Origin: Desulfacinum sp.
Lineage (GTDB): Bacteria > Desulfobacterota > Syntrophobacteria > Syntrophobacterales > DSM-9756
Assembly (NCBI GenBank): GCA_014359885.1
Contig: JACIYN010000017.1
Location: 97,001 to 161,000, forward strand
DNA length: 64,000 bases
Direction of reading: 5' to 3'
Positions 51,781 through 64,000 of the stretch are shown one piece after another. The notes below the pieces were generated by a model. It was not told where the DNA came from. It did no database searches and saw nothing but the letters and a program-made list of their open reading frames with translations. The stretch's first letter is position 1, and the number at the start of each line of letters is the position of its first letter. Position numbers and translations under genes: made by a program.

Positions 51781-53535
51781 ATGGTTCCAGATGCCAAGAT
51801 TCGGATTCAGGACAGTTTCAAGACGTTCCGTCACGACCAGGAAAAGACGAGGCGGCCCGAAGAGACGGTGCAATGGGTTCGGGAGCGGCTCAAGAGCGTA
51901 AACATTCGGATTCTCGCCAAGACCTTGAGGATCGACACGGGGCGTTTGGACATCCCCGTCTACATCAGCCTGTGCGGCGAGGACGCCACGGCCTTTACGG
52001 GAACCAAGAAGCAGATGGGGAAAGGCGCCACGCCGGCCCAGTCGGAAGCCAGCGCCGTCATGGAACTCATGGAGCGCTTCAGCTTCTTTTCCTTTATTCA
52101 CGGCGCCGATTTTCGAAAGGCTCGGGCGACGGACCTGGGCGGGCACGCCGTGGGGGCCCGAATGCTGTTGCGCTCAGTCTTTGATGAAAAGACCCCCGTG
52201 GAAAAGGCGGAGGCCTTCCTTTCCCAATGCCCGCTCCGATGGGTTCCCGTGCGGAACCTGACCCGGGGGGCCGATCAATGGGCCCCCATCGACTGGTTCT
52301 ACCTGATCAACGAGTACAACGGGCCCGCCGCCGGAAACACCCTGGAGGAAGCGGTTTTGCAGGCCTTGTGCGAAGTGGTGGAGCGCCATGTGGGCTCGGT
52401 GATCTGCCATGACGAGCTGGTGACACCCGCCATCGACCCCGAGAGCCTGGCCGATCCCGCTTCCCGGGAGCTGGTGGAGAAGTTTCAACGACACGGGATC
52501 CGGCTCTATCTCCGGGATTTTTCCCTGGATACGGGAATCCCCACCGTGGGGGTGCTGGCCTACGACCCGGCCACGTTTCCGGAAAAGAGTGAAATCGTCT
52601 TCACGGCGGGCACCACGTCGCACCCGGAAAAATCCCTGTGCCGGGCTCTGACGGAGGTGGCCCAGTTGGCCGGAGACTTCGAAAACCGCACCACCTACCG
52701 CCCCACCCTTCCCAAGTACCCCAACCTGGAGGCGGCGGCCTACCTGATGGCACACGACGGCACCGTGCCCATTCAGGCCCTTCCCGACATCAGCCACGAC
52801 AACATGAAGGTGGAAATCGAACGGGCGGTGGCTGCCTTGTCACGCATCGGAATGGAGGTACTGGTTCTCAACGTCACCCATCCGCAGCTGCAGGTTCCGG
52901 CCGTTTACGTGATGATCCCCGGCGCCCATTTCCTGGAGCACACGCGCAACACGGACTTTGCCCAGCACATGGCTCGAACGCTGATCCGCGGCCTGGAACC
53001 AGTGGAGGCGGCCCGGCACCTGGAAAGCCTGGACGCGATGTTCGGGCCGCGGTTCGACCTCACCTTCTTCCGGGCCCACAGTCTGGAGGCCCTGGGAAAT
53101 CCGGGCGAGGCATTGAGCCTCTTTTCCCGATCCCTGGAACAGGATCCCGATCCGGGGGAGCTGGCCAGCATCTATGTGCACATGGCGTCCTGTCACAAGG
53201 ACCTGGGCGACTACCGCCGTGCGCTGGATGCCCTGGAAAAGGCGGAGAGCCACAACCCGGAGCTGAAAGAGATCTACAATCTGCGGGGTTTCTGCCTTTA
53301 CCAGCTCAAGGAACACCACCGGGCCATCGAGGCCTTCGAGCGCGCCATCGAGTTGGATCCCGGATCGGCCATCGACTATGCGAATATCGGCTCCAACCTG
53401 CGCGAGCTGGGCCACATCCGGGAGGCGGTGCGGCTCTACAAGATGGCCCTGGAGCTGGATCCCACCATCCAGTTCGCACGGGATAACATCGAAAAACTTG
53501 AAAAGCACCTGGCCCGCGAAGCCGCCGGGGCGTAG
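51781..53535 (+). CDS. YcaO-domain protein with C-terminal TPR repeats
   Basis: GKGATPAQSEASAVMELMERFSF, EAVLQALCEVVERH; C-terminal TPR-like A-L-D..Y motifs. Confidence 0.88.
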   Translation: MVPDAKIRIQDSFKTFRHDQEKTRRPEETVQWVRERLKSVNIRILAKTLRIDTGRLDIPVYISLCGEDATAFTGTKKQMGKGATPAQSEASAVMELMERFSFFSFIHGADFRKARATDLGGHAVGARMLLRSVFDEKTPVEKAEAFLSQCPLRWVPVRNLTRGADQWAPIDWFYLINEYNGPAAGNTLEEAVLQALCEVVERHVGSVICHDELVTPAIDPESLADPASRELVEKFQRHGIRLYLRDFSLDTGIPTVGVLAYDPATFPEKSEIVFTAGTTSHPEKSLCRALTEVAQLAGDFENRTTYRPTLPKYPNLEAAAYLMAHDGTVPIQALPDISHDNMKVEIERAVAALSRIGMEVLVLNVTHPQLQVPAVYVMIPGAHFLEHTRNTDFAQHMARTLIRGLEPVEAARHLESLDAMFGPRFDLTFFRAHSLEALGNPGEALSLFSRSLEQDPDPGELASIYVHMASCHKDLGDYRRALDALEKAESHNPELKEIYNLRGFCLYQLKEHHRAIEAFERAIELDPGSAIDYANIGSNLRELGHIREAVRLYKMALELDPTIQFARDNIEKLEKHLAREAAGA

Positions 53536-54096: not shown

Positions 54097-56823
54097 TCAC
54101 GGATGCCGCGGGCGAGGCGCGTCCAGGGGCAACGCCTGGGCCGGATTGCGGGGAAGGGTGCGGACGATCAGACGCCCCGAAAAGAGATCCCGCGCCAATT
54201 CCAGGACATCCCGGGCCGTCACCTTGCGGACCAGGTCGGGATAGCGACGGTCGTAATCGAATCCCAACCCCAGGGCCTCGTGGACGGCGGCGCTTTGGGC
54301 TCTGGCGTGCAGCCCCTCCAGGTCCAGGGCGTGCATGGTGAGCACCATGTCCTTGGCCCGTTCCAACTCCGCAGGGCTCATTTCCTCCCGGGTCAGCTCC
54401 TCCAATTTCTCGAGCACGATCTGTTCCACGCGGTCGGCGTTGTCCAGGGTGGTCTGCGTGATCACGCCGAAGAATCCCCCGTTGAGGCCGTAAAAGGGAA
54501 AGGCGTGGACCACGTAAACCAGGTTGTTGATGCCGCCCCGCAGGGCTTCGTGAAGGCGCCCGCCGGGATAGCCGATACCGGAAAGCGCCGCGTCCAGCAC
54601 ATCGAGGACGGGACGGCGCGGATCCCGCAGGTCCAAGCCACCAGTTCCCACGAAGAGACCCAGGGACGTCTTGTCGGTTTCCTGTTCCACCACCCGGGAG
54701 CCTTGGAACGGTTGGGTTTCTCGCGGTAGATTTGGGATCGCCGGCTGCGGCCGTTTCCAGGATCCCAGGGCCTTCTCAAGACGCTTCAGCAGCTTTTCCC
54801 TGTCGAAATCTCCGTAGATGGCCAGGACCGACGATTGGGGGGCGACCATCTTTTCATAAAAATCCAACACTTGGTCGCGAGTGAAGGCCGCGACGCTCTC
54901 GGGCGTACCCAATCGATCGTGACGATAGGGATGCCGGGTGAAGTAGTGCTCTTTGAAAAGGCGCACCAGCTCCATCTGCCAATTCTCGTCCCGGCGCTTG
55001 ATGGCCAGGAGGGTCTCCTCCTTCTTCTTGCGGATCTCCTCCGGAGGAAAGACCGGATGGGTGATCACGTCGGCCAGGATGTCCACGGCCAGGTCCACAT
55101 CGTCGCTCAGGACCTTGGAGGTGACGAAGTAGGTGTTGCTTTGGGATCCCGATGCGATGCTGCCTCCCACTTCCTCCAGGGCCTGGGCGATCTCCAGCTT
55201 GCTTCGCTTCTTGGTCCCGGCGGTGAGGAGCGACGCCGTGAAGGCTGCCAGGCCCTCCTGCCCGGGGCCTTCCAGGAGCAGCCCGCCTATCCCGTACAGT
55301 TGAAGGGTCACCACGGGGAGGCGGTGATCTTCGAGGAGCAGCACGCGCAGCCCGTTGTCCAGGCGCACGAGAGACGGGCCTTTGTCCTTCGGGGCCGAGG
55401 CAAGCGGCGCCGGGGCGGTCGTTTCGGACGGTGTGGAGACGGGCAGAACGGCGGCCACCGTCATGGCCTCCGGAACCAGGTAACGCCGGGCCACCCGAAG
55501 CACATCCTCCCGGGTGACCTGCCGGACCTTTTCCACGTAATGCTCGTCGAAGTAGGGATCTCCCGTGTCGAAGTAAGAGGACGCCAGGGAAGAGGCCATC
55601 TCTTCGGCCGTTTCCTTGCCGAAGATGTGGTCGGCGATCACCTTCTTTTTCGCCTTTTCCAACTCGCTTCGGGAGACCTTTTGGGATCCAACGGCTTCCA
55701 GTTCCTCTTTAAGAGGTTCCAGGACCGCCGGCCAGTTCTCGGGGGCCAGGCTCATGGAAACCACCCACTGGCCGGGAACATAGGCGGGCGTCCAGTTGAA
55801 CGCTCCGACGGAAAGAACCAGGTTCTCTTTTTCTTTGAGTCTCTGATGGAGGCGGCCGGTACGGCCGTCGCCCATGAGAATGGCCAGGACGTCCAGGGCG
55901 TACAGGTCCTCGTGGGCCAGAGGAACGGAACGGAACCCCACCATGGCTTGGACCATGCGGGCCAAGGGCAGACGTTTTTCCGCCCACCGCCGGCCCAAGG
56001 GCGGAGGTTCGCTGGGAAGGACCACCGGAGGGGCCTCTCCCCGGGGCATCTTCCCCACCCTTTCGCCCACGAAGGCTAGAACGCGATGGGGATCCACGGG
56101 TCCCGCCACCGCCACCACCAGGTGCTGGGGCTGGTAACGGGCGCGGTAGTAGGCTTGGAGGTCCTCCCGAGTTTGGCGGACGAAGACGTCTTCGTAGCCG
56201 ATGACCGGATGTCGAACGGGGTGGATTCGGTAGGCCGTCTGCATGAAGAGCTTCCACAGGACACGGCCGGGATCGTTTTCTCCCATGCGGATTTCCTGCT
56301 GGATCACGGCCTTCTCCCGGACCACCTCCTGCTCCGCAAGGCTGCATTCCGTCACGTAGGAAAGCAGCAGATCCAGACTCTCCTCCCAGTGGGCGGCGGT
56401 GGTGGTGATGTAATAGACCGTTCGGTCGTGGCTGGTATAGGCATTGCTCGCTCCGCCCATGCGCTCCAAACGCCTCCGGGCTTCCTCCTCGCTGAAGGAC
56501 CGGGTGGTTCCCCCCGCCACCACGTGTTCCAGGTAGTGGGACAGACCGGCCCCCATGTGGTCGCCTTCGTAGATGGATCCGGCTCGGACGTAGACTCTTG
56601 CGGAAACCACCTGGGAGTCGGGGATGGAGCGGACCAGCAAGGTGAGTCCGTTGTGGAAGACGGCGAAGGTGTCGCCCGGCTTGCTTTCAAGAAAACGTTC
56701 CAGGAAGGGAGCTTCCCGGCTGACGGGTGCTTCCCGGGCCTGGCCGGCCGGGCAGGGAAAGGTGACCAACAAGCCGGTGACAAACAGCAGGGCCGCTCGG
56801 AAGACCATTCGCCGCAGGTGCAT
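54097..56823 (-). CDS. M16 family metallopeptidase (two-domain), exported
   Basis: Signal peptide; HYLEH zinc motif in GLSHYLEHVVAGGT; duplicated M16 fold. Confidence 0.93.
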   Translation of the reverse strand: MHLRRMVFRAALLFVTGLLVTFPCPAGQAREAPVSREAPFLERFLESKPGDTFAVFHNGLTLLVRSIPDSQVVSARVYVRAGSIYEGDHMGAGLSHYLEHVVAGGTTRSFSEEEARRRLERMGGASNAYTSHDRTVYYITTTAAHWEESLDLLLSYVTECSLAEQEVVREKAVIQQEIRMGENDPGRVLWKLFMQTAYRIHPVRHPVIGYEDVFVRQTREDLQAYYRARYQPQHLVVAVAGPVDPHRVLAFVGERVGKMPRGEAPPVVLPSEPPPLGRRWAEKRLPLARMVQAMVGFRSVPLAHEDLYALDVLAILMGDGRTGRLHQRLKEKENLVLSVGAFNWTPAYVPGQWVVSMSLAPENWPAVLEPLKEELEAVGSQKVSRSELEKAKKKVIADHIFGKETAEEMASSLASSYFDTGDPYFDEHYVEKVRQVTREDVLRVARRYLVPEAMTVAAVLPVSTPSETTAPAPLASAPKDKGPSLVRLDNGLRVLLLEDHRLPVVTLQLYGIGGLLLEGPGQEGLAAFTASLLTAGTKKRSKLEIAQALEEVGGSIASGSQSNTYFVTSKVLSDDVDLAVDILADVITHPVFPPEEIRKKKEETLLAIKRRDENWQMELVRLFKEHYFTRHPYRHDRLGTPESVAAFTRDQVLDFYEKMVAPQSSVLAIYGDFDREKLLKRLEKALGSWKRPQPAIPNLPRETQPFQGSRVVEQETDKTSLGLFVGTGGLDLRDPRRPVLDVLDAALSGIGYPGGRLHEALRGGINNLVYVVHAFPFYGLNGGFFGVITQTTLDNADRVEQIVLEKLEELTREEMSPAELERAKDMVLTMHALDLEGLHARAQSAAVHEALGLGFDYDRRYPDLVRKVTARDVLELARDLFSGRLIVRTLPRNPAQALPLDAPRPRHP

Positions 56824-56929
56824 GATCCACCTCACACGAACGCATGGAGATACGAAACCGTGGAAGAAAGGAAACGGCCCTACGCCTCGGGAGGCGTGAG
56901 GGCGCAGGGGCGAGGGCGGCAGGCGTGGG

Positions 56930-57142
56930 TCAACGGGATTCAGCTTCCATGGACGCCAGCTCGTCCAGGATCCATCGGATCTTGTCCTTGTCCTGCAAAT
57001 CTTCGGGCTTTTCCTGTTCAATGCGGAGCAAGTCCTCCAGTTCCAGGCGGCGGCGGTCGCGAAACCCGCCCACGTCCTTTCGGAAGTGGCGCTGGGCCAT
57101 GTACTGGGACTTTTCGTATTCCTTTTCCAGATCGTCGTTCAT
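56930..57142 (-). CDS. Small acidic conserved-looking hypothetical protein (70 aa)
   Basis: MNDDLEKEYEKSQYMAQRHFRKDVGGFRDRRR..., just upstream of M16 gene. Confidence 0.55.
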   Translation of the reverse strand: MNDDLEKEYEKSQYMAQRHFRKDVGGFRDRRRLELEDLLRIEQEKPEDLQDKDKIRWILDELASMEAESR

Positions 57143-57510: not shown

Positions 57511-58314
57511 TCAAAGAATTCGCCGCTCCAGGAAATGGGCGACGACTGCAAACCGATCCAGCGTGCCTTTTTCGTCATGCCAAACACGGGGCGGCCGGGC
57601 AAGGCCCCCAAACAACCATCGGTCTTCCGACCATTGGAAACGCACCACGGCCTCGGAGAGGAGAACCTCTCGGCACAGCTGCAGGGCCATGTGGACGGCT
57701 CCGTCCAAGGAGAATCCGGGTAAGAGAAGCGAGCGGCCTTCGGGGGCCGTGAAGCGGGAGCCCACCGCCCTGCCCTGCACGCAATAGACCTCCGCCGTAC
57801 AGAGCGTGGGAACGGGCTTCCAGACCACCAGCGGGTCGTGACGGGCGCAGGCGTCCCGCCACTGGTCCGGGCGGGCGGCACGGATCACCGGGTCTTTGGC
57901 GGCGTTGGGCCCCGCCGCGTTCAAGGGAAGTCCTAGGCGTTCCAGGGCCTGCTCCTTGGCGCGGTATCCATAACAGATCCGGTGCGGCGGCGCGGGAATT
58001 CGGGCGTAGGCTGCCGCTCGCCACTGCAGGGGACGGTCCTTCCAAATCGTGTAGGTGAAGGCGGTGGGAAAACAGCGGCATCCGGCCGCTTCCAGAACCG
58101 GGGCTAGGCGCGGCGTGGGGTAGAGAATCCATTCGGCCCGCAGAATGGCCTCCCGTTCGTCCGGGGCGTAATCGGCAGGAGCCGGCCGGATTCCAAGGGT
58201 CCGCACCGCGGCCACATGGGACAAAAAAGGGGCCAGAGCCACCACCCGCCCCCAACGGGCAGGGGCCGCTCCGGCCGCCGGTTCGCGTCGTTCCGATCCC
58301 ACAGGCCGCCCCAT
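57511..58314 (-). CDS. Hypothetical protein, possible divergent ATP-grasp-like
   Basis: PHRICYGYRAKEQALERLGLP and PLVVWKPVPTLCTAEVYCVQG segments; TGATG overlap with upstream gene. Confidence 0.4.
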   Translation of the reverse strand: MGRPVGSERREPAAGAAPARWGRVVALAPFLSHVAAVRTLGIRPAPADYAPDEREAILRAEWILYPTPRLAPVLEAAGCRCFPTAFTYTIWKDRPLQWRAAAYARIPAPPHRICYGYRAKEQALERLGLPLNAAGPNAAKDPVIRAARPDQWRDACARHDPLVVWKPVPTLCTAEVYCVQGRAVGSRFTAPEGRSLLLPGFSLDGAVHMALQLCREVLLSEAVVRFQWSEDRWLFGGLARPPRVWHDEKGTLDRFAVVAHFLERRIL

Positions 58315-59786
58315 CAATTGGGATTCAGCAGCACGTCCGGATGGACCCCGTAGTTGTAGCTGCGCATGCGGAAATAGTTTTCCAGCAGCCCCACCTTCTG
58401 ATCCACGTAGTCGTAGATCTTCAGGCGGCGTCCGTTGGAGCCGTTCCCGTTGCCCCCGTGGCCGTTGCCCCCGTCTCCGTTCTTGTAGAGGTTCCGGATG
58501 GCATGGGCCAAGCCCTTCTTGAAAAAGAGGGGAACGGCCAGGAAGAGGACGTCCGTGGACACCTGCTGGTAGCAGCGCATCAGGCTTTGGGGAGTGAAAA
58601 GAATGGCGGTGGGGCCTGCCTCCGGCAGGTCCTGACAGCAGGTGGGCGCTTCCCGCCCCGGTTGGTCGTCGTCCCCTTCTTCCTCGTCCAGTCCCGGGGA
58701 CGCCGGCCGGGGAATATGGACCGGTATGCCGCGCCGTTCCAGTTCCTGTCCCAGTACCCTCTGCTGCGCATCTCCGCCGCAGATCACCACCAGGGGCCTC
58801 TCCCCGGCCGAAAGCTCTTCCTGGATGTCGTCGGCGATGAGGCGCGTTCGCTCTTCATCGGTCATGAGCGCGTGGAGCATGGGGGAATAATCGTCTTCAC
58901 CTGCGTAGGGGTAATCGAAATCGGTGGGACGCGCCACCACGTGGGCTCGGATGATGCCCTTGCCGTCGCGGGCATCCTTTTCGCTGATGCTGTAGACCAC
59001 ATCGCCCATGTAGAAGTAGATGAAGCGGGACAGGTTGTCCCGGCGCTGAGCGGTGTTGGCCAGTCCCAACAGATAGCGACTGTCGAAATTGGGGATGAGC
59101 TGGGTCAGGACCTTCGCGGGGCTACGCTGGCATTCGTCCAGTACCACGAAGCCCACCTTTTCCTTCACGTCCTTCCAAGCGCGCATCATCTCCGCGGTGT
59201 GGGCCACCGTGATCTTCTCTCCCAACTTGTGGTGCCCTTGGACGAAGACGCCGATCTGTTCCAGTGGCACCTGCAGGAAATTCACTATCTTGGTCATCCA
59301 GCCTTCCAGGAGGTCCATGCGCGGGATGAGGACCAAGGTGGGCTGCTTTCGCTGGGCGATGACGTAAAGGGCCGTAACGGTCTTGCCGCTCTTGTAGCCG
59401 CCGATGAGAGTGGCCGAATCGCGGGTCAGGATCTCTTCCGCCGCCTGGAGCTGATATTCCTTGAGACGGCCGTGGAATTCCAGTTCGACGGGGTCCAAGG
59501 TCCGTCTGCGGTCGATCAGCTTGAAGGGCTGATTGAATTTCCGGCAGAGCTCCAGGAGTTGATCCAGGAATCCGCGGGGGAGCAGGTAATTGCGGCCGGC
59601 CTTGCGGATGCAGTTGATCTGGGGCGGGATGCCGCCGATCCACTCTCCCCGGAGATGCCGCGCCTCATACTCGGGGTTTGTGAACACCAAACGTTCCTGG
59701 ATCTTTCGCATGACGGGCGGAATCACATCCCCGTAGGGAATTCGGATTCTTTCTGCTACCGTAATCTTGAGGGTCTTTGCATACAT
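58314..59786 (-). CDS. SF2 (XPB/UvsW-like) helicase-related protein with altered core motifs
   Basis: RRTLDPVELEFHGRLKEYQLQAAEEIL, GGYKSGKT, VVLDECQRSP, LLGLANTAQRR, YDYVDQKVGLL. Confidence 0.8.
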   Translation of the reverse strand: MYAKTLKITVAERIRIPYGDVIPPVMRKIQERLVFTNPEYEARHLRGEWIGGIPPQINCIRKAGRNYLLPRGFLDQLLELCRKFNQPFKLIDRRRTLDPVELEFHGRLKEYQLQAAEEILTRDSATLIGGYKSGKTVTALYVIAQRKQPTLVLIPRMDLLEGWMTKIVNFLQVPLEQIGVFVQGHHKLGEKITVAHTAEMMRAWKDVKEKVGFVVLDECQRSPAKVLTQLIPNFDSRYLLGLANTAQRRDNLSRFIYFYMGDVVYSISEKDARDGKGIIRAHVVARPTDFDYPYAGEDDYSPMLHALMTDEERTRLIADDIQEELSAGERPLVVICGGDAQQRVLGQELERRGIPVHIPRPASPGLDEEEGDDDQPGREAPTCCQDLPEAGPTAILFTPQSLMRCYQQVSTDVLFLAVPLFFKKGLAHAIRNLYKNGDGGNGHGGNGNGSNGRRLKIYDYVDQKVGLLENYFRMRSYNYGVHPDVLLNPN

Positions 59787-59901
59787 GGGAACCAAACCAC
59801 CTTCCATGGGAATTCGAGCTCTCGACATCTGCGCGGGGTCATGATGCTTCCGAAGATCCTTTTGAGAGTGAAATCGCACAGTCTTTTTGAGCCCGTTAAA
59901 C

Positions 59902-59926
59902 AAACTATACAAAAAAAGTATGGTTT
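59902..59926. promoter_or_regulatory. AT-rich inverted repeat upstream of helicase-like gene
   Basis: AAACTATAC-AAAAAAA-GTATGGTTT in otherwise GC-rich DNA. Confidence 0.55.
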
Positions 59927-60207
59927 AAGAAAGCCTCTTCCGCACCTCCTCCGAATCACGAAGAAGGAAGGTTTCGCCCTCTTGTGGAGCTTGCCTTCTC
60001 CGTCTCCCTAAGGTAGTCACTGCTCGGAGCGTGTCAGGCCCGTGCGATAAATGGCTCCCGGCACGAGGCCTCGGCACCGGGCATGCCGTCTCGGCGTTGG
60101 TTCCGGACCGAGTCCTGGCCCGCCCGGCGCGTGGAGTCCGCAATCTCCGTAGGGTCGAAAGATTTTTCGCCCCTGCGGCCACCTAGAAAAGCAAGGAGTA
60201 GACCGAA

Positions 60208-60552: not shown

Positions 60553-61827
60553 TTAATCCAGGACATCGGCAGGTTCGTCGATTTTCTTGAGCACGATATA
60601 GAGATTCCCCGGATGCTTGAGTCGGCCGGCCACGGCTTCGGCCGCGTCGCCGGTGCCGCAGTAAAGGTCCACGCGATGGGGGCCGCGGATGGCACCGCCG
60701 CTGTCCTGGTGGACCACCCAGCGCTGAAACGGCCTGGTCCGGTGGGTTCCGTCCCCGAGCGGCAGGCGCCCCGTCAGGACGGCCGGCACACCGTCCGGGT
60801 ACCAGGCGCTGTCGGCGGCGATGGAACGGCCCGGGGTCAGAGGGACGTGAAGACTTCCCAGAGGCCCTTCCTCGACCCACCGGAAGAAGACGTAGCTGGG
60901 GTTGTGCCAAAGGATCTCCTGCAGCCGTTCCGGATGGTCGTTCAGGAACCGGCGAAGCGTCGGAAGGCTCATCTCTTCGCGTGGAATCCAGCCCCGGGCG
61001 ATGGCGTAGGCTCCGATGCTCCGATAGGGCCGTCCGTTGCCGGCGGCGTAACCCACGCGCCGGGTCGTCCCGTCGGAAAGACGCAGGACTCCAGAGCCCT
61101 GCACGTGGAGGATGAAGGCGTCCACCGGATCCTTCAGCCAGGCCAGCTCCAGGCCTCGCCCCTGCAAGGCTCCCTGCCCGTCGATCTGCCTGCGATCGAA
61201 GTAAGGAACCAGACGATTCCCCTCGATCCTTCCCAGCACCCGGCGCGGCCCGGTCTCGGGAGCCGAAAGCCAGGGAAACTCCTCCAGGGCCACCTGGATC
61301 AGGTCCGGAGGCGGTGAGTACAACGGATAGCGAAAGACGTGGTCGGGCTCCAGGCGCGCTTCCAGAACGGGTTCGTAATACCCCGTGACCAGGACGTTCC
61401 CACCTGAGTGCGCCTGCCTGGGGTATGCGTAGAGATCAAAGTTCCGGGAGAGCGCCGGGAGGCGGAGCTCGCCCCTTTCGAGCATCTCCCTGAGCGATAG
61501 AAGCGTCCGCCGGATCCCATCGGCCGACACCTTCCGGCCCTCCACCTCAAAGGAGATCTCCCGCCCGCCCCTTTCAAAATAGCTGAGCGATCGGGCCAGG
61601 GCTTCTTCCAGGCCTTCCAGTTGCAAGTCGTCTTCCGCGCCGGCCAAGGCGTCCCAGGAGACCCGGGTGAGTTGCGGCTTGGATGGCGTGACCGATGGGG
61701 GCTTGGGAGCGCATCCGGCCAGGAAGAGGAGCGCGGCCAGGAGCGTGGCCATGCGCCGGCTGGGCCCAAGGATCTTGCCTGTCCCGGTGCCGGTCCGGGA
61801 AGCGGGATGGGGTTTTTGCATCGCCAT
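60553..61827 (-). CDS. mltA: Membrane-bound lytic murein transglycosylase A
   Basis: Lipobox LLFLAGC; VTGYYEPVLEA, QDSGGAIRGPHRVDLYCGTGDAAE. Confidence 0.93.
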   Translation of the reverse strand: MAMQKPHPASRTGTGTGKILGPSRRMATLLAALLFLAGCAPKPPSVTPSKPQLTRVSWDALAGAEDDLQLEGLEEALARSLSYFERGGREISFEVEGRKVSADGIRRTLLSLREMLERGELRLPALSRNFDLYAYPRQAHSGGNVLVTGYYEPVLEARLEPDHVFRYPLYSPPPDLIQVALEEFPWLSAPETGPRRVLGRIEGNRLVPYFDRRQIDGQGALQGRGLELAWLKDPVDAFILHVQGSGVLRLSDGTTRRVGYAAGNGRPYRSIGAYAIARGWIPREEMSLPTLRRFLNDHPERLQEILWHNPSYVFFRWVEEGPLGSLHVPLTPGRSIAADSAWYPDGVPAVLTGRLPLGDGTHRTRPFQRWVVHQDSGGAIRGPHRVDLYCGTGDAAEAVAGRLKHPGNLYIVLKKIDEPADVLD

Positions 61828-61924
61828 GGTGTAGGGAATCTCCCGGTCTTGAAACGGCCCGGGGCACGGCCTGGCGGCGTGCCCCGGAGGGGTGTGCTCC
61901 ATTGTTGATTGGGGTGCCATTCCT

Positions 61925-61952
61925 GTAGGCAGGGTTCGCGAACCGTCCCTAC
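61925..61952. repeat. Degenerate family A palindrome
   Basis: gtaggcagggttcgcgaaccgtccctac. Confidence 0.75.
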
Positions 61953-62006
61953 CCTTCAGGAGGAGGCACGATCCCGGACGCGGGGAAATGGCATTGGGAC
62001 AACTTC

Positions 62007-63479
<1,473 letters not shown>

Positions 63480-63538
63480 AGGAGCTTGTCTGACAATGGC
63501 TCTCCGAGACAAGAGCCCGAGCTATGGGCCCTCTTTTC

Positions 63539-63660
63539 GTAGCCGCGGGGCTTCAGCCCCGCGGAAAGGGCCATCGCAACTGCATGAAGCGACAGGAAAT
63601 ACGCGATGGCCCATCCAACGTTCGGGGGGTTCTTTCGCAGCCCTAAAGGGCTGCGCTACG
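63539..63660 (+). repeat. Composite GTAG/CTAC hairpin module (B-C module)
   Basis: gtagccgcggggcttcagccccgcgg ... gggccatcgc...gcgatggcc ... cgcagccctaaagggctgcgctac. Confidence 0.88.
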
Positions 63661-63697
63661 AGAAAAGAGATCATCCGCGGCGTTCTCGGGCGGTCTC

Positions 63698-64000
63698 CTA
63701 CGCCCCCAGCTTGCCGGCCTTCTCGATGAGGATGTCCACCTTGTCCGTCTTTTCCCAGGTGAAGTCCGGATCGTTTCGGCCGAAGTGGCCGTAGCACGAG
63801 GTCTTCTTGTAGATGGGGCGAAGCAGCTTGAGATCCCGGATCATGTTGGCCGGCTTGAAGCTGAAGACCTCCCGCACGATCTTGGCGATCTCGTCGGGCG
63901 GAATCTTGGCGGTGCCGTAGGTGTCGATCATGAGCGACACCGGTTCGGCCACGCCGATGCTGTAGGCCACCTGCACTTCCACCCGGTCGGCCAGGCCGGC
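63698..64000 (-). CDS. metK: S-adenosylmethionine synthase, C-terminal part (truncated at window end)
   Basis: [22 protein letters not shown] ... [18 protein letters not shown]. Confidence 0.95.

Follow-up and report, generated by a model that had tools for sequence, protein, structure and literature searches.

A probable pseudohelicase of the XPB/UvsW-like family, conserved in Desulfacinum and related bacteria

Overview

This report deals with a helicase-like gene in a stretch of 64,000 nucleotides from Desulfacinum sp. (class Syntrophobacteria, order Syntrophobacterales), which is referred to in full as the window. Its product has kept the helicase fold and lost catalytic motifs, and it is conserved in that state among its orthologs, as expected of a pseudohelicase. 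We consider it likely, at roughly two chances in three, that the protein descends from a phage- or mobile-element-type XPB/UvsW-like SF2 helicase and now serves as a nucleic-acid-bound, non-translocating and possibly ATP-gated platform. An earlier note on this DNA, made from the letters alone, had named the gene a candidate pseudo-helicase. That proposal is now well supported by 46 orthologs in several families, by purifying selection and by canonical relatives that do not carry the substitutions. The partner genes and the phage or mobile-element origin described below were absent from the note.

Gene, family and predicted fold

The open reading frame runs on the minus strand from an ATG at 59786 to a stop at 58316-58314 and encodes 490 amino acids with no internal stop (Table 1). 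The frame of 490 intact codons was thus confirmed, and all peptides cited earlier were found in the translation. In Pfam, ResIII covers residues 108-247 (E 3.7e-11), hence the first helicase lobe only, and Helicase_C was not found; a canonical relative from D. infernum (L066) matches both ResIII (6.7e-29) and Helicase_C (7.6e-13). A phmmer search of PDB sequences led to archaeal XPB II (6p4f, 3.7e-10, residues 107-271). Against the NCBIfam XPB equivalog NF045503 the protein scores 39.6 bits, below the curated cut-off of 610 bits.

The AlphaFold model, based on 45 diverse aligned orthologs and relatives, reaches a pLDDT of 87.4 and a pTM of 0.75, and supersedes a weak earlier model from 20 close sequences (pLDDT 71, pTM 0.45). 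Searched with Foldseek, the predicted fold matches archaeal XPB best (E 5e-19) and also TFIIH XPB and T4 UvsW. The N-terminal half fits T4 UvsW (1rif) with a TM-score of 0.68 (by target); over the whole chain the scores are low, at about 0.37-0.42, which a different placement of the domains presumably explains. The protein is therefore an XPB/UvsW-like SF2 helicase by homology, with two RecA lobes and an N-terminal domain (NTD), and the family assignment made from the sequence by eye is upheld by ResIII, phmmer, AlphaFold and Foldseek alike. Two insertions that the note had also singled out, DEEEGDDD and an NG-rich linker, are present in low-confidence loops of RecA2 (residues about 361-380 and 438-450); these loops are variable and differ between genera, and they are not what defines the protein.

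Table 1. Features of the helicase-like gene and its neighbours (positions in the window)
Feature	Position	Strand	Remarks
Degenerate RimK-like ATP-grasp protein gene	57511..58317	-	ATG overlaps the helicase-like stop by one base (TGATG)
Helicase-like pseudoenzyme	58314..59786	-	490 aa, ATG start, stop included
C-terminal tail KIYDYVD..GLLENYFRMRSYNYGVHPDVLL, residues 453-490	58317..58430	-	Best conserved part of the orthologs
Degenerate RecA-like lobe 2 (RecA2), residues 329-452	58431..58802	-	Without motifs V and VI; acidic, versus basic in canonical relatives
Motif VI position, HAIRNLYKNG	58476..58505	-	QYLGRVLRPA in relatives
RecA-like lobe 1 (RecA1), residues 105-265	58992..59474	-	
Motif III region GLANTAQRRD, residues 241-250	59037..59066	-	Canonical form GLSATPxRRD
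Motif II DECQ, residues 217-220	59127..59138	-	DECH in f5; DDAN/DDAH in f2; DDCN in f6
P-loop GGYKSGKT, residues 129-136	59379..59402	-	APTGSGKT in most canonical relatives; K132 and K135 invariant among orthologs
N-terminal domain (NTD), UvsW/XPB-type, residues 1-104	59475..59786	-	Basic, net +7 in the window protein; 99% of canonical-conserved columns retained
Divergent intergenic region, 421 bp	59787..60207	.	CCATACTTTTTTTGTAT block common to the window and two other Desulfacinum genomes (three in all)
Divergently transcribed small protein, 106 aa	60208..60528	+	Restricted to this class; helical character by sequence only

Loss of helicase motifs

Motifs were counted by regular expression in 46 full-length orthologs and 34 relatives. 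Motif VI (QxxGRxxR), present in 33 of the 34 relatives, occurs in none of the orthologs, which bears out the suspected loss of the arginine-finger motif. Motif V (GEGxD) is likewise found in 33 of the 34 relatives versus one of the 46 orthologs, and this sole match is a chance one in a variable loop (L021); the loss of this motif (GEGFD) was not mentioned in the note. The SAT/TAT of motif III, rightly described as altered, has given way to SNT, ANT, CHE, SST and others in nearly all orthologs. The note had conceded that intact motifs elsewhere in the protein would undo its reading; across all orthologs the expressions gave chance matches only, and the reading stands.

The ATP-binding side of the protein is better preserved. 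All 46 orthologs contain the general P-loop G/A-x4-GK, in the form GG[YH]KSGKT or GGYKTGKT in the order, GDAKSGKT or GGAKSGKT in family f5 and GGPKTGKK in family f6. To call motif I remodelled was thus an overstatement: it differs from the SF2 consensus, but the P-loop is complete. Among the orthologs G129, K132, G134, K135, Q112 and D217 are invariant or nearly so, with Q112, K135 and D217 strictly invariant.

Motif II mostly reads DE[CS]QR in families f1 and f3, DDA[NH]R in f2, DECHR in f5 and DDCN in f6. The Walker B pair DE is retained in f1, f5 and most of f3 and is DD in f2, f6 and two f3 proteins; the fourth position is Q, N or H. The earlier claim of a remodelled motif II therefore applies to most orthologs and fails for f5, the class-level outgroup, whose DECHR and basic RecA1 count against the pseudohelicase reading. 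Because f5 still has DECHR, motifs V and VI appear to have been lost before motif II changed. In f2 and f6 Asp replaces the catalytic Glu (E218), and in f6 Lys also replaces the Walker Thr (T136), so these two families do not conserve hydrolysis. DECQ by itself is no proof of inactivity; what counts is the loss of motifs V and VI.

Distribution, phylogeny and selection

The nearest relative of the window genome is Desulfacinum infernum, an independent genome whose protein is 98% identical. A search of 99 related genomes turned up full-length single-copy orthologs across the whole order, as well as in two other families of the class. A class-wide profile search matched 51 of 57 genomes (35 of 36 among those of good quality). 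We count orthologs in 50 of the 57, namely 46 full-length ones and fragments in G033, G041, G046 and G047 that reflect contig ends or gaps; the match in G030 is a long relative and was left out. A supposed NTD-only ortholog in G047 was rejected on account of a 100-N scaffold gap. Across the phylum, matches came from 73 of 297 genomes, including 12 class members, and the relatives of about 470 amino acids outside the class whose loci were read all have canonical motifs except one copy in G092 (L074). In an independent scan of named genomes with strict peptide patterns, orthologs were confined to Desulfacinum, Desulfosoma, Desulforhabdus, Desulfoferrobacter and related MAGs.

In the tree, the 45 ortholog rows form one clade (support 100/100) on a long stem of 0.93, separate from all canonical relatives. 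Orthologs with canonical motifs, which the note had feared might expose the copy as an error or pseudogene, did not turn up: the substitutions are common to the 46 orthologs and absent from the canonical relatives.

Selection has acted unevenly along the protein. In 22 canonical proteins, 114 columns show conservation of 90% or more. Of these, orthologs in the order retain almost all in the NTD (99%) and the tail (97%), fewer in the linker (82%) and RecA1 (66%), and under a quarter in RecA2 (23%); 24 residues are newly fixed in the orthologs (e.g., K132, P155, H196, N470, F472, and Y477). Mean pairwise identity within the order is 0.63 in the NTD, 0.66 in RecA1, 0.73 in the tail and 0.34 in RecA2; the respective values for the canonical relatives are 0.33, 0.58, 0.44 and 0.56. 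Whole-gene dN/dS lies at 0.06-0.14, below the value of 1 that the note had set as a check. By domain, most ratios fall at 0.03-0.09 for the NTD, RecA1 and the tail, against 0.10-0.39 for RecA2; one of the pairs compared is noisier (dS 0.07) and one saturated. The net charge of RecA2 falls from +5.0 in canonical relatives to +1.0 in f5 and -4.8 in the order; the NTD (about +5) and RecA1 (about +4) are still basic. NTD, RecA1 and tail are thus under strong purifying selection, whereas constraint on RecA2 has relaxed and its charge has shifted from basic to acidic. Together, selection and charge indicate that the half bearing the second grip on ATP and DNA was released and became acidic while the other half was held and re-tuned. 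The remark that this is not simple decay is borne out by the open frame, by orthologs across several families and by purifying selection.

Neighbouring genes

Upstream of the helicase-like gene, 42 of 46 loci carry a small protein of about 110 amino acids with FRxAQ and FDEM motifs. Its versions in f2, f3 and f5 are homologous by profile comparison, and in f6 genomes its gene lies on another contig. It occurs in 51 of 57 class genomes versus none of 42 other genomes, and matches no Pfam family above threshold.

The ATP-grasp gene follows immediately downstream in 32 of the 45 loci with room for it; in some members of one family it is absent or lies elsewhere, and it is thus not indispensable. 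Its f5 member exceeds the Pfam threshold for RimK-like proteins (PF08443; 34.5 vs 21 bits), and the family profile matches PDB 5i47 (1.3e-6). The partner is accordingly homologous to RimK-like ATP-grasp ligases, but the order's copies lack the ATP-binding Lys (lost in all 12 aligned sequences) and a complete metal-binding E-x-N (none of the 12 keeps both Glu and Asn). In f5, Lys is kept in seven of seven neighbour copies and Asn in three of seven. Since f5 retains more than the order, the helicase-like and ATP-grasp genes have degenerated further in the same lineage. Class genomes usually hold two ATP-grasp copies, the helicase neighbour and a second one elsewhere that is canonical (AK..P.GSS.G.GV, QEYLPIDRD, EANM).

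In the window genome this intact paralog (L113) lies at G000:C65:129162-129902, and a small number of other families in the phylum have it too; its gene context is mostly not conserved and offered no pathway clue. Beside the locus, the gene order metK, ahcY, mltA (60553-63982, minus strand) is shared by many of the examined class genomes. A protein of two M16 peptidase units (54097-57021, minus strand) lies downstream of the helicase/ATP-grasp pair and is kept there in several genomes. Further away, a YcaO domain is fused to C-terminal TPR repeats (51781-53535, plus strand).

Proposed origin and mechanism

Among phage records 919 contain a relative of the protein, and among plasmid records 154. 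The complete relatives read on viral contigs have intact canonical motifs, and those in bacterial genomes are patchy in occurrence; one, on an integrated element, adjoins a Toprim/CHC2 primase-like gene and integrase-like genes. With canonical relatives in phages and mobile elements, the window protein resembles a helicase that was domesticated and then became a pseudoenzyme. As the simplest history we infer, from the tree and from motifs in the outgroups, that a mobile-element helicase was captured, fixed in the class ancestor and then deprived of its motor. The near-complete class distribution, graded intermediates (DECHR in f5, DE[CS]QR in f1 and f3, DD in f2 and f6), many canonical outgroups and two linked genes make it possible to trace how a mobile-element motor would have turned into a fixed protein without motor function.

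Along this path, the ancestral mobile-type helicase would have become a fixed chromosomal gene and shed motifs V and VI first and III and II afterward, that is, its arginine-finger and coupling motifs. Today's protein would contact nucleic acid through its basic NTD and RecA1, as homology and charge suggest, and RecA1 may still bind ATP: the intact P-loop in all orthologs makes ATP binding plausible and translocation not. RecA2 would no longer close on ATP or grip DNA, leaving hydrolysis uncoupled from lobe closure, for which reason we propose that the protein does not translocate. The surfaces of NTD, RecA1 and tail could dock partners, chiefly the small protein and, in loci that have it, the pseudo-ATP-grasp protein; gene order points to such complex formation. 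Because the gene is retained under selection throughout the class, with the same neighbours and with its motor lost, it probably binds DNA or ATP and organises proteins instead of unwinding. The notion of an ATP-binding scaffold or DNA-binding protein, put forward earlier, fits the intact P-loop, the invariant Q112, K135 and D217 and the basic NTD.

More tentatively, pseudohelicase, pseudo-ATP-grasp ligase and class-specific small protein might together form a class-defining chromosomal complex in which the loss of catalysis advanced further in both degenerate enzymes within one and the same lineage and the helicase acts as an ATP-sensing nucleic-acid platform; we hold this to be possible and rather doubtful.

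Alternative explanations

That the protein is a divergent but active ATPase or translocase, with motifs V and VI migrated or an arginine finger supplied in trans by a partner or second subunit, seems unlikely to us, although the complete P-loop and invariant D217 would suit it. R431, close to the motif VI position and conserved in most orthologs but not all, could be a migrated arginine finger, and some purifying selection still acts on RecA2. The Snf2-type INO80 family, moreover, works with DEAQ. However, RecA2 keeps only 23% of the canonical-conserved columns, has lost its basic charge and evolves fastest, motif III is gone too, and f2 and f6 have exchanged E218 for Asp, with T136 replaced by Lys in f6. 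The changes in f6 (GKK and no catalytic Glu) lend some weight to a role purely as protein scaffold or as transcriptional regulator, in which the protein has abandoned ATP and keeps its P-loop for structure, as does the absence of the ATP-binding Lys from the ATP-grasp partner in the whole order; a divergent promoter common to the helicase-like and small genes would also suit autoregulation. We nevertheless find this distinctly improbable, as the (near-)invariance of G129, K132, G134, K135, Q112 and D217 seems beyond structural need.

Degenerate motifs and a low-complexity NG linker might equally bring to mind a decaying gene, a pseudogene, a sequencing error or a misassembly. This has next to no likelihood given 490 open codons, a 98% identical protein in the independent D. 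infernum genome, dN/dS of 0.06-0.14 and class-wide synteny; the ortholog set rules out pseudogene, assembly error and chance. The idea that the protein regulates a canonical paralog within its own cell was rejected as a general explanation, since no further member of the family occurs in the window genome. A role in defence was also set aside: PADLOC gave generic helicase-domain matches only, and none for the partners.

Relation to known helicases and pseudohelicases

The best matches in sequence and structure are archaeal XPB and T4 UvsW-like SF2 helicases (5tnu, 6p4o, 2fwr, 1rif), with which the preferred pseudohelicase shares the fold order NTD-RecA1-RecA2; it differs from them by lacking motifs III, V and VI, by its acidic RecA2 and by a motif II altered in most orthologs. 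Bacterial, plasmid and phage DEAD/DEAH helicases of about 470 amino acids (PHROG 16, DNA helicase) share its NTD and the tail [IV]YDYVD..R.Y at about 30-36% identity. They keep all motifs, are patchy across genomes and occur in mobile DNA; the window protein, in contrast, is degenerate and a fixed gene across the class.

A literature search brought up nothing relevant on Desulfacinum or Syntrophobacter helicases, and few bacterial pseudohelicases have been described. Among the three open papers in which the full text yielded the term 'pseudohelicase', Deinococcus radiodurans PriA is the only bacterial one characterised: it binds DNA, does not hydrolyse ATP and does not unwind (PMC4504706). Like our protein it is an SF2 helicase with non-conserved motifs within one phylum, but it belongs to another family and has a known role in replication restart (PMC4504706). 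Yeast Utp25, whose motifs are dispensable and which acts within a complex, shares the helicase fold but is of the RNA DEAD-box type and acts in eukaryotic ribosome assembly (PMC9539457). The present family would be new as far as our searches show. A degenerate partner and a small protein specific to the class raise its interest above that of a single degenerate gene. The family points to a conserved function in syntrophic and sulfate-reducing bacteria. For annotation it is a caution, as a gene that would be called a helicase is probably something else.

A separate degenerate member of the wider family was met in L112:4193-5716 (G092:C78) and L121 (G342:C86), with GPRGSGKK, DQCERAN and QAMGALMKAA and without GEGFD. 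The two copies come from different species of the same genus, share 68% identity and lie beside Toprim/CHC2 primase-like and integrase-like genes, and by their motifs they represent a second, independent, putative pseudohelicase of a mobile element.
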